Assembly: GCF_000016525.1 (NCBI RefSeq)
Contig: NC_009515.1
Span: forward strand, 1,390,501-1,454,500
Source: Methanobrevibacter smithii ATCC 35061
Lineage (GTDB): Archaea > Methanobacteriota > Methanobacteria > Methanobacteriales > Methanobacteriaceae
Direction of reading: 5' to 3'
Length of the DNA stretch: 64,000 nt
Positions within the stretch are counted from its first letter, which is position 1. Each line of letters begins with the position of its first letter. The position numbers and the translations under genes are program-made. The notes beneath the pieces were generated by a model, which saw only the letters and a list, made by a program, of their open reading frames with translations, was not told the origin of the DNA and did no database searches. Shown piece by piece: positions 8,025 to 37,095 of the stretch.

Positions 8025-8636
8025 TTAAGCAGTTATTGGTTCACCTTTTTTAGCCCATTGGGTAACTTTAACTGTAATAGGTTGTGCTACAAATGTCCAA
8101 ATGAACATTATGATGAAATGAACAAGAATCATTATTGCAATATTTGCCCAACTTACAGTAAATGCAAATGCTAATGAAATGAATATTGTGTTGTCTAATA
8201 TTTCACCAATGGCAATAGCTCCAATAGATTTGTATCCGACATTTCCGTCTTCGGATCTTTCTTTAATCATACGGGTTAATTTAGCATTTACAAAGTTACC
8301 AACAATATACGAAATAAAAGATGAAATCAACATTCTTGGTGTTTGTGAGAATATGTATACAAAACTATCCTGTCCTTCCCAGAAACCAGCTGCAGGTAGC
8401 ATTAATGCAATTGTTGAAACAACAACGAAAAGCAAGTTACAGACTACTCCAAAAAGAATAGTTTTTTGTGCTGTTGATTCTCCATATGTATCAGCTATCA
8501 CTGATGTGAGAATAAACACTAGCGGATAGATTATTACTCCGCAGGGAACTGTAAGTCCCCAGAAACCTAAGTCTAAAATTTTTACAGTAACAATATTTGT
8601 TGTAACAAAAGCCACGCAGAATATTGCTATTAACAT
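8025..8636 (-). CDS. YhhQ/DUF165 family queuosine-precursor-type transporter
   Basis: Integral membrane protein of at least 203 residues with six or so hydrophobic segments and the family signature VIIYPLVFILTSVIADTYGE. YhhQ proteins import queuosine precursors; in an archaeon the likely cargo is a 7-deazaguanine such as preQ0 for archaeosine, which is inference. Start choice is a problem. The first ATG (8636) has no ribosome site. A strong AGGAGG lies at 8680-8685, and 7 bases after it, in frame, is an ATA codon (8670-8672) that would add 12 residues (INLNINYFEKKI) before the first membrane segment. See findings. Confidence 0.85.
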   Translation of the reverse strand: MLIAIFCVAFVTTNIVTVKILDLGFWGLTVPCGVIIYPLVFILTSVIADTYGESTAQKTILFGVVCNLLFVVVSTIALMLPAAGFWEGQDSFVYIFSQTPRMLISSFISYIVGNFVNAKLTRMIKERSEDGNVGYKSIGAIAIGEILDNTIFISLAFAFTVSWANIAIMILVHFIIMFIWTFVAQPITVKVTQWAKKGEPITA

Positions 8637-8794
8637 TATTTTCTTTTCAAAATAATTTATATTTAAATTTATAGAAATTCCTCCTATTTTTTAAACAATA
8701 TGTATTATTTCTGGAAGATTTCATATAATAATGTTCTGATAAAAATAGGATGGGGGTGATAGTTTTTTTTTAAAGGATGGTGTTTGGAAGAAGA

Positions 8795-33386: not shown

Positions 33387-33422
33387 TCATGTATATAATT
33401 ACAATTTTCGTTCTGTAATTAG

Positions 33423-35372
33423 GTGAATAATTTAAAAGGGGGTGAAAATATAGTTAAAAAAGTGTTTTTCATTTCAATTTTAATATTCTTTTTGGCAATA
33501 AACATTGTAGCTGCTGAAGACAGTGATAATGCTACAGCTGATGCATATGATAAGTCTCAAGTAGAAAATGTTGTATTGCAGAATATAGAAATAGATAATG
33601 TTCGATTAAATACATCTGATGTGTCAGTATTTTCTAAAGGTGAATTTTATAATGCTACCCTTACTTATGATGATGGAACTCCAGTTTTTAATAAAACAAT
33701 CACTTTTGATGTTAATGGAGTCAAATACAATAAGGTAACCAACAATCAGGGTATTGCAAGTTTGAGCATACGATTAAATCAGGGAACATATGTTATTTCC
33801 ACTAGTTTTACAGATTCTTATGACAGAATTTTAACTCACTACAATTATGTCTATGTGTCTGATGTTAAAGGAACTGTTATTCCAGAGGGATTGTCCAATA
33901 TTGAAATTCAAAAAATCCTTGATTCTGCAAATGCGGGAGATAATATAATTTTTGCGGGTAAAAACTATGAAAATATATCATTGACAATATCTAAAAACCC
34001 TGTTAATATTTACAGTTCAGTTAAATCTACTTTAAATGGAAATTCCAAAAGCCCAGTTTTTACAATTGAATCATCTAAAGCTGCAGGAACTGTTATTTAT
34101 AACTTAATTATTCAAAACGGTTCTGAAGGAATTTTATTGAAGGGAACTAATAATATTACGGTTCTTAATAATGATATAACTAAAAATAGTCGTGGCATTA
34201 GTGTAATCGGTACAGATAAATCAAATATTATTGGAAATTTAATTTCCAATTCAAAAAGTTTTGGAATTTATCTTAAAGATTCAACTAATACTCTTATCTA
34301 CTCTAATTGTATTACTAAAGGTGGAAATGGTATTTATTTTGACAATGGTGTAAAATATACAACTATTGAACATAATCAAATATCATACAACAAAGGATAT
34401 GGAATAAATCTCCATGGGTCAGGACCTTACACAAACATAACTGACAATAATGTTTCAAATAATGATTATGGAATCAATATTGATTGTAAGGGTGATTCTG
34501 AATTATATATCACTAACAATGCAATTCATAATAATGACGTAGGTCTTAACATCGGTGAAAATTATGTAAGATCCGATGAGGAGGGATTAACTGGTGTCGG
34601 ATACAATTTTATAGGTCTTAATAATGAATTTAATATTGCAGCTAAGGAAAATGATAATTACCCTGCTTTTAAGATGGGTCCGGTACTTACTGATGGGAAT
34701 GATGAACCATTTATTAAGATTTGTAATAAAATAAAAACCGAATTCTTAAGTTTTGATGTTAAGCAAATTGATAAAGGTTCTATACTTGTATCTGTAGACA
34801 GCAAAATCACCACAGCTATTCCATGGAAAGTTTCAGTTAATAATGGCGGTAACTGGGGATATATGGAAATTAATAACGGAAATGGTATTTTGCATGTCAA
34901 TAATGGTGACGGTATTGTAAAGTTCGGTTATTATGGCAGTTCTGGTCAGGAAACTTATAAGTTATCTGATTACGAAGCGTATATTAAACCAAATTATCCT
35001 GTTCCACCTTCTAATCCTACAAACCAAAATACGAATGGAAATGGAACTTCATCTAACACACAGCAAGGTCAAAGTTCTGCAACTACTTCTGGAGGATCAA
35101 ATGACGGTTCTTTAAGTGTGGCTGGGGCTAATTCAGTATCAGCATCATCTGCTCAATGTTCTGCTTCTGCAAGTGACTCTGGTTCTAGTGATGGTGCTTC
35201 TTCTTCTGCATCAGCTAGTTCTTCTCAATCTGTTGCAAAGGTTATAGATATTGATGAAGAAGTTGTAAGAATTGCAGGAATAAGTATTTTAATATTATTA
35301 ATAATAGCTGTCATTGCTTTGTATTATAGGAATGATATAAAATCCATGATTGAAAAGAAAAATGGCAAATAG
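33423..35372 (+). CDS. Membrane-anchored beta-helix adhesin-like protein
   Basis: Protein of about 640 residues: signal peptide (VKKVFFISILIFFLAINIV), one Ig-like domain (TFDVNGVKYNKVTNN), a parallel beta-helix (about 150-440), a Trp/Gly-containing domain, a Ser/Ala-rich low-complexity stalk (about 540-610) and a C-terminal membrane helix with a basic tail (ILILLIIAVIALYYRND). Unlike its two neighbours it is therefore cell-anchored. Start: the frame opens at GTG 33423, which has no ribosome site. A perfect GGGGGTGA lies at 33438-33445, and the codon at the proper spacing is ATA (33450-33452), giving [M]VKKVFFISI. Genes for an ExbB-like channel system follow. Confidence 0.88.
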   Translation: MNNLKGGENIVKKVFFISILIFFLAINIVAAEDSDNATADAYDKSQVENVVLQNIEIDNVRLNTSDVSVFSKGEFYNATLTYDDGTPVFNKTITFDVNGVKYNKVTNNQGIASLSIRLNQGTYVISTSFTDSYDRILTHYNYVYVSDVKGTVIPEGLSNIEIQKILDSANAGDNIIFAGKNYENISLTISKNPVNIYSSVKSTLNGNSKSPVFTIESSKAAGTVIYNLIIQNGSEGILLKGTNNITVLNNDITKNSRGISVIGTDKSNIIGNLISNSKSFGIYLKDSTNTLIYSNCITKGGNGIYFDNGVKYTTIEHNQISYNKGYGINLHGSGPYTNITDNNVSNNDYGINIDCKGDSELYITNNAIHNNDVGLNIGENYVRSDEEGLTGVGYNFIGLNNEFNIAAKENDNYPAFKMGPVLTDGNDEPFIKICNKIKTEFLSFDVKQIDKGSILVSVDSKITTAIPWKVSVNNGGNWGYMEINNGNGILHVNNGDGIVKFGYYGSSGQETYKLSDYEAYIKPNYPVPPSNPTNQNTNGNGTSSNTQQGQSSATTSGGSNDGSLSVAGANSVSASSAQCSASASDSGSSDGASSSASASSSQSVAKVIDIDEEVVRIAGISILILLIIAVIALYYRNDIKSMIEKKNGK

Positions 35373-35477: not shown

Positions 35478-36137
35478 ATGTTAAGTTTATTTGAGGGATA
35501 TTTATTAATATTTGTTGCATTATTTGCAGTTAATATTGGTCTTTTTTTAGGAAATTTTAAAACTAATAATTTGAAAGCAATTATTGTTGCAGTTTTATCT
35601 GGAATTTTGCTGATTGGTGTTAACAGTATTTCTGGCTATTTTAAAGATAGTCTGTCATTTTTGGCAGGTAATTTTGGATATCTGTTTATAGTAGCGGCAG
35701 CTGTCTTATTTGTTTTAACATGGATTTTTTTAAAAAAGGAAAATAATTTAAAGGAAGTTACTTTGATAACTGCCGTCTTATTTTATATATCTATATTATG
35801 TATTGATGCACATATTGATGGATTTTCAGTATTTAATAGCTTATTATTAACTTTATTTTTAGTTATAATAATGTTTGTAGTTTATCAGCTTTCTAAATTA
35901 TTATTTTATGCAAAAAGAGAGTATTCCCTTATTGTTGGGGAGTTTATGATTTTAGAATCAATTTTAATTTTTATTTTAGGATTAACTTACTGGTCTGTTA
36001 AAGAATTGGATTATAGTATGTTTAGTGCTTATCTGATTTTGACTCCTACTTATAAGCTGGTGTATGTTATTATTTTAATGATTTTTATTTTGATTGTGGG
36101 ATTATATTATAATGATAAACAGTTGAAAAAAAGATAG
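35478..36137 (+). CDS. DUF2162-like membrane protein
   Basis: Very hydrophobic protein of 219 residues with about seven membrane segments and few charged residues, resembling the methanogen family DUF2162 (putative transporter, function unknown). The ribosome site before the ATG is weak. A TATA-like TTTATATATTC at 35418-35428 suggests its own promoter after the upstream terminator. It is followed after 11 bases by the ExbB-like gene, so it is probably part of the same membrane complex or pathway; that is inference. Confidence 0.7.
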   Translation: MLSLFEGYLLIFVALFAVNIGLFLGNFKTNNLKAIIVAVLSGILLIGVNSISGYFKDSLSFLAGNFGYLFIVAAAVLFVLTWIFLKKENNLKEVTLITAVLFYISILCIDAHIDGFSVFNSLLLTLFLVIIMFVVYQLSKLLFYAKREYSLIVGEFMILESILIFILGLTYWSVKELDYSMFSAYLILTPTYKLVYVIILMIFILIVGLYYNDKQLKKR

Positions 36138-36148
36138 TGAGGTAATTT

Positions 36149-36790
36149 ATGATAATTCAAGGAACTGAAACATTATCTTCATTTATTCATATAGTATCTG
36201 AAAGCTTACTGACTCCGGTAATGATTTTGATTGTGGTTGGTTTGATAGTTGTTATATTATGTATTGGAGGACTTATTAATGAACGCATTTCAAGAAAAAC
36301 AATTAGCTCTGAAGAATTGGAAAGTTTAGTTAGGGATGTTTCATTTTCACAGTCTCACAGTGAAATTGAAAAACTTATAGAAGAAAGCAATTTATTTGAC
36401 TTTCAAAAGAATGTCCTTGTTAAGATAGCTAACAATTATGATATCGGAAGTGAGGCTAGAAAAGCATTAGCCAGTGAATTAATTTCAGCAGAAGAAACTA
36501 AATTAATTAAAAGTACTAATAAAACAGATGTTCTTGTAAGAGTAGGTCCTATTTTAGGTCTTTTAGGTACTTTAATTCCTTTAGGTCCGGGGTTAGCAGC
36601 ATTAGGTTCTGGAGATATTGTTACATTAGCTGAAGCATTAACTGTTGCATTTGATACTACTGTCACTGGTTTGGTTATAGGTGCACTTGCTTATTTGGTA
36701 TCTAAATTTAAAAAACAATGGTATGAATCAGATTTAATAGTTCTTGAAACTATTGCTGAAGCAGAATTAGAGACTTTAAATAGAAAGTGA
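36149..36790 (+). CDS. MotA/TolQ/ExbB-family proton-channel protein
   Basis: Protein of 213 residues with the ExbB/TolQ plan: one N-terminal membrane helix (about 20-42), a cytoplasmic helical region, then two helices (about 130-150 and 165-187). The family core is visible as LVRVGPILGLLGTLIPLGPGL and ALTVAFDTTVTGLVIG, which include the conserved Gly/Pro and Thr residues lining the channel. ExbB/TolQ proteins use ion flow to drive work on envelope proteins. The small DUF2149 protein next to it would be the ExbD/TolR-like partner. Confidence 0.87.
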   Translation: MIIQGTETLSSFIHIVSESLLTPVMILIVVGLIVVILCIGGLINERISRKTISSEELESLVRDVSFSQSHSEIEKLIEESNLFDFQKNVLVKIANNYDIGSEARKALASELISAEETKLIKSTNKTDVLVRVGPILGLLGTLIPLGPGLAALGSGDIVTLAEALTVAFDTTVTGLVIGALAYLVSKFKKQWYESDLIVLETIAEAELETLNRK

Positions 36791-36795
36791 GTATT

Positions 36796-37095
36796 ATGCT
36801 TAGGAAAAAACGTAGAATTAGTGAATCTTTAGATGATGACCCGATGAGTGGTTTATCTAACTTGTCTGATGCAATGCTAGTTCTGGCACTTGGATTTTTA
36901 ATTTTTGCTATTATGGCATTATCTGCAAATCCGGAATTAATCTCTCAAACACCTGATACTCAGGATGTTTCTAGTGCTGATACTTTTGAACAGAATTATA
37001 CTGATGCTGGCGGTATGGAAGATAGCGGATACAGTGAAGTAGGTAAAGTTTATGAAGATCCGACTACTGGTAAGCTAGTGATGGTATCGGGATAA
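36796..37095 (+). CDS. DUF2149 protein, probable ExbD/TolR-like partner
   Basis: Protein of 99 residues: a basic N-terminus, then DDPMSGLSNLSDAMLVLALG leading into a single membrane helix that begins with Asp, and a short polar exterior domain. This matches the ExbD/TolR plan, in which an Asp at the start of the helix carries protons. The ATG at 36796 is chosen because GTGAG precedes it; a GTG at 36787 overlaps the upstream stop. The exterior domain is much shorter than in bacterial ExbD. The partner role is inferred from position and topology. Confidence 0.75.
   Translation: MLRKKRRISESLDDDPMSGLSNLSDAMLVLALGFLIFAIMALSANPELISQTPDTQDVSSADTFEQNYTDAGGMEDSGYSEVGKVYEDPTTGKLVMVSG

Follow-up and report, generated by a model that had tools for sequence, protein, structure and literature searches.

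A putative AUA start codon, probably long kept as a near-cognate, in the adhesin-like first gene of an ExbB operon of Methanobrevibacter smithii

The window analysed here is a 64,000-base stretch of the Methanobrevibacter smithii ATCC 35061 genome (bases 1,390,501-1,454,500 of a single contig of 1,853,160 bases). It contains a gene of 640 codons for an anchored beta-helix (NosD/adhesin-like) protein, which is the first gene of an operon continuing with DUF2162, ExbB and DUF2149 (Table 1). The protein matches the Pfam families NosD (4e-25) and Beta_helix (1e-19), and in the alignment both termini are hydrophobic, with the C-terminal hydrophobic anchor conserved. Like other Methanobrevibacter adhesin-like proteins (ALPs), it has a signal or anchor sequence, a right-handed beta-helix and a membrane anchor.

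Table 1. Positions of the features of the ExbB operon region and of the second gene with a putative AUA start, numbered within the window.
Feature	Position	Strand	Basis
Vut_1/YhhQ-like transporter	8025-8672	-	SD GGAGGA (8684-8679), ATA 8672-8670; Pfam Vut_1 1.6e-33
TATA-box-like element TATATAAT	33392-33399	+	Sequence; TATA-rich elements upstream in relatives too
Extended Shine-Dalgarno (SD) GGGGGTGA	33438-33445	+	GGRGGTGA in 9/9 clade members
Predicted hairpin, SD paired with early coding region	33439-33475	+	Window genome and sister G011
Putative AUA start codon, 4 nt after GGTGA	33450-33452	+	ATA 3, CTG 6 at homologous site
Adhesin-like beta-helix protein (NosD): signal peptide [M]VKKVFFISILIFFLAINIVAA, beta-helix, Ser/Asn-rich stalk, C-terminal membrane anchor	33450-35372	+	Pfam, alignment, dN/dS
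DUF2162 membrane protein, same operon	35478-36137	+	ATG start in 8/8 read (control)
MotA/TolQ/ExbB proton channel protein, same operon	36149-36790	+	ATG start in 8/8 read (control)
DUF2149, ExbD/TolR position, same operon	36787-37095	+	

At the 5' end of the adhesin-like gene, the bases read directly give the SD GGGGGTGA, the spacer AAAT (33446-33449), ATA and then GTT; the sequence downstream of the ATA is VKKVFFISILIFFLAINIVAAED. An earlier note had taken this ATA as the start codon, pointing out that the layout equals that of the dapF start, GGTGAAAAT-ATG, except for the last base of the codon, and a direct reading of both sites (33438-33452 and 2269-2280) bears out the match. From the usual archaeal distance between TATA box and transcription start, transcription is expected to begin near 33420, so that the leader would be short and a GTG at 33423 would lie at or beside the 5' end of the mRNA. 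The layout is not unusual in this DNA: GGTGANNNNATA was found four times in the window, while 2.1 occurrences are expected by chance, i.e., it is not rarer than that. The window alone therefore proves little, and relatives of the gene were needed.

Relatives were gathered from 67 Methanobrevibacter genomes, mostly draft assemblies or MAGs, together with contigs of named genomes. The start could be read in 46 proteins; one further sequence (L079, from G019) was omitted because neither its SD nor its start could be anchored. Nine species, with 36-82% identity to the window protein, form a clade with 100/100 support, and wherever enough flanking sequence was read their ALP-DUF2162-ExbB operon is syntenic, mostly including DUF2149. 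All nine carry a near-cognate where the window gene has its ATA: three have ATA (the window genome, G033 and the sister G011, which is 81% identical), and six, nested as a clade of their own, have CTG (G009, G034, G020, G046, G037 and G022). None of the nine has ATG, GTG or TTG at this codon, and all nine carry GGRGGTGA followed by exactly 4 nt before it. The comparison with the same gene in relatives, which the earlier note had proposed as a check, thus favours the ATA as start codon. The ATA common to the window genome and G011 is a single event, the two genomes being close. It is the evolutionary comparison, not the count in the window, that carries the observation beyond chance.

Purifying selection on the coding sequences is evident from dN/dS values of 0.28 for the window gene against G011, 0.12-0.20 for CTG pairs and 0.10 for a pair of ACG-started genes of the sister subfamily described below. 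CTG is uncommon among the leucine codons of the CTG-start genes. Among 18 alignment columns with leucine throughout in four full-length CTG genes, not one is uniformly CTG, as the start codon is.

A sister subfamily, about 30% identical, comprises 33 members with ATG, three with ACG (G015, G003 and G045) and one paralogue with ATA (G038). The start follows GGTGA after 3 nt in all ATG members but one, and after 4 nt in the ACG members and the ATA paralogue. The ACG starts are less certain than the ATA and CTG starts because indels accompany two of the three. We considered the ATG subfamily as possible orthologues of the window gene and rejected this, since the genomic context differs where it could be seen. 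The ATA paralogue, in M. thaueri SIG17 (L052, G038:C22:200484-202736), has its own GGAGGTGAAAAT-ATA start and shares its genome with an ATG-started copy. Two other members of the subfamily (L095 in G004 and L100 in G061) lie directly downstream of ExbB-DUF2149, not upstream.

Reading of the frame confirms the claim of the earlier note that the conventional in-frame starts nearby are GTG 33423, the first codon after a TAG, and GTG 33462, and its view that neither is suitable holds as well. A start at GTG 33423, leaderless or nearly so, would read through the SD and give MNNLKGGENIVKK. The frame is open from this codon and the TATA-like box lies about 25-30 nt upstream, which makes a leaderless start conceivable, but the relatives render it very improbable. 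The frame upstream of the ATA in G011 is AGG TGA GTA GTT TAA AAA GGG GGT GAA AAT ATA, with GTA in place of GTG 33423 and two stops (TGA, TAA) before the ATA; an A-run that is one base shorter in the window genome than in G011 is what puts GTG 33423 in frame. Seven of the eight other clade members have no upstream in-frame canonical codon, and in most CTG members a TAA is found four to six codons upstream with no canonical codon in between. A leaderless start codon should stand at the 5' end and be conserved in relatives, whereas GTG 33423 is unconserved, and reading through the SD is disfavoured, the SD being conserved. Initiation at GTG 33462 (codon 5), leaving the AUA untranslated, has in its favour that codon 5 is GTG, TTG or ATG in six of the nine clade members. 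Three members, however, have CTA or ATA there, and the spacing from GGTGA would be 16 nt, too far from the SD. A start there would also remove the Lys-Lys n-region, which is conserved from codon 3 on, and we regard it as no more probable than GTG 33423. Another adhesin-like copy with an ATA start is indeed broken in this genome (G000:319047), which would fit gene decay or an error in sequencing. Against this, the same codon is present in an independent complete genome, relatives have intact ORFs and dN/dS is 0.10-0.28, leaving this explanation a negligible probability.

The earlier note counted two genes with AUA starts in the window. The second is most likely the Vut_1/YhhQ-like ORF on the minus strand, which begins GGAGGAATTTCT-ATA. 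Its ATA is found in five species (the window genome, G011, G021, G065 and G033; 74-98% identity) with a varying spacer; in about 20 relatives at a greater distance (44-48%) this codon is ATG and the GGAGGA SD is absent. A 464-kb sample of the genome (372 ORFs of at least 120 codons, filtered for a simple SD) gave two credible AUA starts, this gene and one for a 159-aa protein, so such starts are rare; the filter misses the adhesin-like gene of the window because its frame opens with GTG. The 159-aa gene (G000:C1:1495036(-), L130:15036-) starts GGAGGTTATACT-ATA with the SD GGAGGT, which is stronger than the SD of most ATG-started relatives; ATA recurs in G011, and ATG is found elsewhere. Three other candidates with an SD followed by ATA or AGG were discarded on account of proper ATG starts or an internal-looking position (L124:17721, apparently an RNA polymerase subunit gene, L133:15254 and 7117-).

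A genome-wide search for ideally spaced SD-ATA starts, also proposed in the earlier note, led to further near-cognate genes. In the whole 1.85 Mb genome, just four sites have GGRGGTGA followed after 1-5 nt by ATA. One is the window gene, and a second, similarly arranged around its ATA, belongs to a broken adhesin-like gene (G000:C1:319047, L111:1501; interrupted by frameshifts and by a stop directly behind the signal peptide). At the third the true start is an ATT, that of a different adhesin-like gene, and the fourth apparently lies within a coding frame. GGRGGTGA sites also precede an adhesin-like frame at least 1421 codons long with an ATT start, the same in G011, and another adhesin-like gene with a TTG start. 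GGGGGATTTATT-ATT opens a further adhesin-like gene, again with ATT in a G011 relative. The two large adhesin-like genes with ATT behind strong SDs are at G000:C1:1087764(-) (L170:4265-) and G000:C1:1319292(+) (L129:9292). A secreted CobN-domain (CobN/Mg-chelatase) protein in the region of G000:C1:1098808(-) (L166:2326-) has ATT behind GGGGGTGA. This surface gene has GGRGGTGA in all four species in which it was compared, with ATT in the window genome, G011 and G062 and ATA in G065. A functional link of the CobN-domain protein with the ExbB operon protein is possible; no CobN gene was found near the ALP operon of relatives within the 8-20 kb pieces examined. The genome-wide tally is a lower bound, drawn from 400 kb of sampled stretches and from pattern searches that covered GGRGGTGA sites with a base other than G at the last pattern position.

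Tolerance of AUA initiation in this genome, as the earlier note suggested, is backed by the independent relatives and by the Vut, 159-aa and CobN genes. The note understated the finding, since the near-cognates include CUG, ACG and AUU and occur in further genes too. Judged by these sequence comparisons, near-cognate initiation is a minor feature of the genome that evolution has maintained, tied to strong SDs.

Taken together, AUA 33450 is very probably the start codon, a near-cognate long kept at the head of the ExbB operon and most likely setting a low or fidelity-dependent yield. The extended SD would hold the 30S subunit at a fixed spacing, and initiator Met-tRNA would be accepted on the mismatched codon, giving a signal peptide that begins with Met. 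Compared with the AUG-started DUF2162 and ExbB on the same mRNA, the AUA or CUG would most likely keep the yield of the surface protein low, or dependent on initiation fidelity. In the window genome and G011, a predicted hairpin covers the SD and would lower the yield further. The z-scores of the hairpin are -2.6 and -3.1, respectively, and -0.9 in one CTG relative, where significance was not found, so that conservation ends at the closest pair. To our knowledge, archaea have no IF3. We propose that the archaeal fidelity factors aIF1/aIF1A may regulate the near-cognate start. A rare tRNA or special anticodon is an improbable explanation, judged from the codons: the mismatches fall at position 1 (CUG), 2 (ACG) or 3 (AUA, AUU), and no single variant anticodon fits all.

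One rival concerns the purpose of the weak start and not the AUA start itself. With a strong SD making AUG dispensable, the start codon could simply drift, and the near-cognates would be neutral leftovers. This agrees with the extended SDs that always accompany near-cognates in the adhesin-like family and with the known link between start-codon switches and SD changes (PMC5622118). Under drift, however, some of the nine lineages should have regained ATG, GTG or TTG, the CTG pairs being separated by a dS of about 0.8-1.5, and none has; DUF2162 and ExbB of the same operon keep ATG. We therefore hold neutral drift to be possible but rather unlikely. The lack of any return to AUG across the nine, next to genes of the same operon that do start with AUG, points to selection for a weak start with a low yield per mRNA. 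The weak codon thus seems to have been retained for a function and not to be an error. Low or adjustable expression, of which the earlier note had offered the former as a possible reason, is plausible and, as a hypothesis, the best explanation.

The closest parallels are bacterial, namely infC (AUU) and Streptomyces sigR (GUC). Like these, the gene studied here combines a putative start other than AUG, GUG or UUG with retention across species and an extended SD. In Streptomyces, sigR has the extended SD AGGAGGTG and starts with GTC in 32 of 34 species and GTT in two; its start was misannotated upstream, and it is repressed by IF3 (PMC5472188). The order of an extended SD and a non-canonical start kept across species is the same here. 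The difference is that sigR is bacterial and GUC-started, with IF3 as the sensor, whereas the present cases are archaeal surface genes with putative AUA, CUG, ACG or AUU starts. The infC gene starts with AUU in E. coli and AUC in Streptomyces and is autoregulated by IF3 (PMC5472188). The likeness lies in the non-canonical start, which has a regulatory role in infC and may have one here; infC, however, encodes the fidelity factor itself, and the genes here encode surface or transport proteins. Among 61,358 ancestral AUG starts, two switched to CUG and one to AUU (Belinky et al., 2017, PMC5622118). In that study, weaker starts go with an SD change or stronger SD conservation, similar to our observations, but its scope is AUG, GUG and UUG, and AUA is unmentioned in the main text. 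Non-AUG starts in chloroplasts are likewise conserved across species and form a layer of expression control, but they concern an organelle, have GUG as the main example, and the authors favour high rather than low expression (PMC9845219). A search by title and abstract, in a literature set with few subscription journals, gave no comparable report of an AUA, CUG or AUU start maintained through archaeal evolution.

More speculatively, an extended SD with a near-cognate start could mark several Methanobrevibacter surface proteins, among them the anchored NosD-like ExbB-operon protein and the secreted CobN-domain protein, for common control of translation, an arrangement that co-tunes surface or metal/corrinoid-uptake proteins via the levels or activity of aIF1/aIF1A; we regard this as doubtful. 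Gene callers restricted to AUG, GUG and UUG will misplace such starts and may lose the signal peptides of surface proteins of gut methanogens. The near-cognate gene set is a ready test of whether archaea, without IF3, regulate genes via start-codon fidelity.
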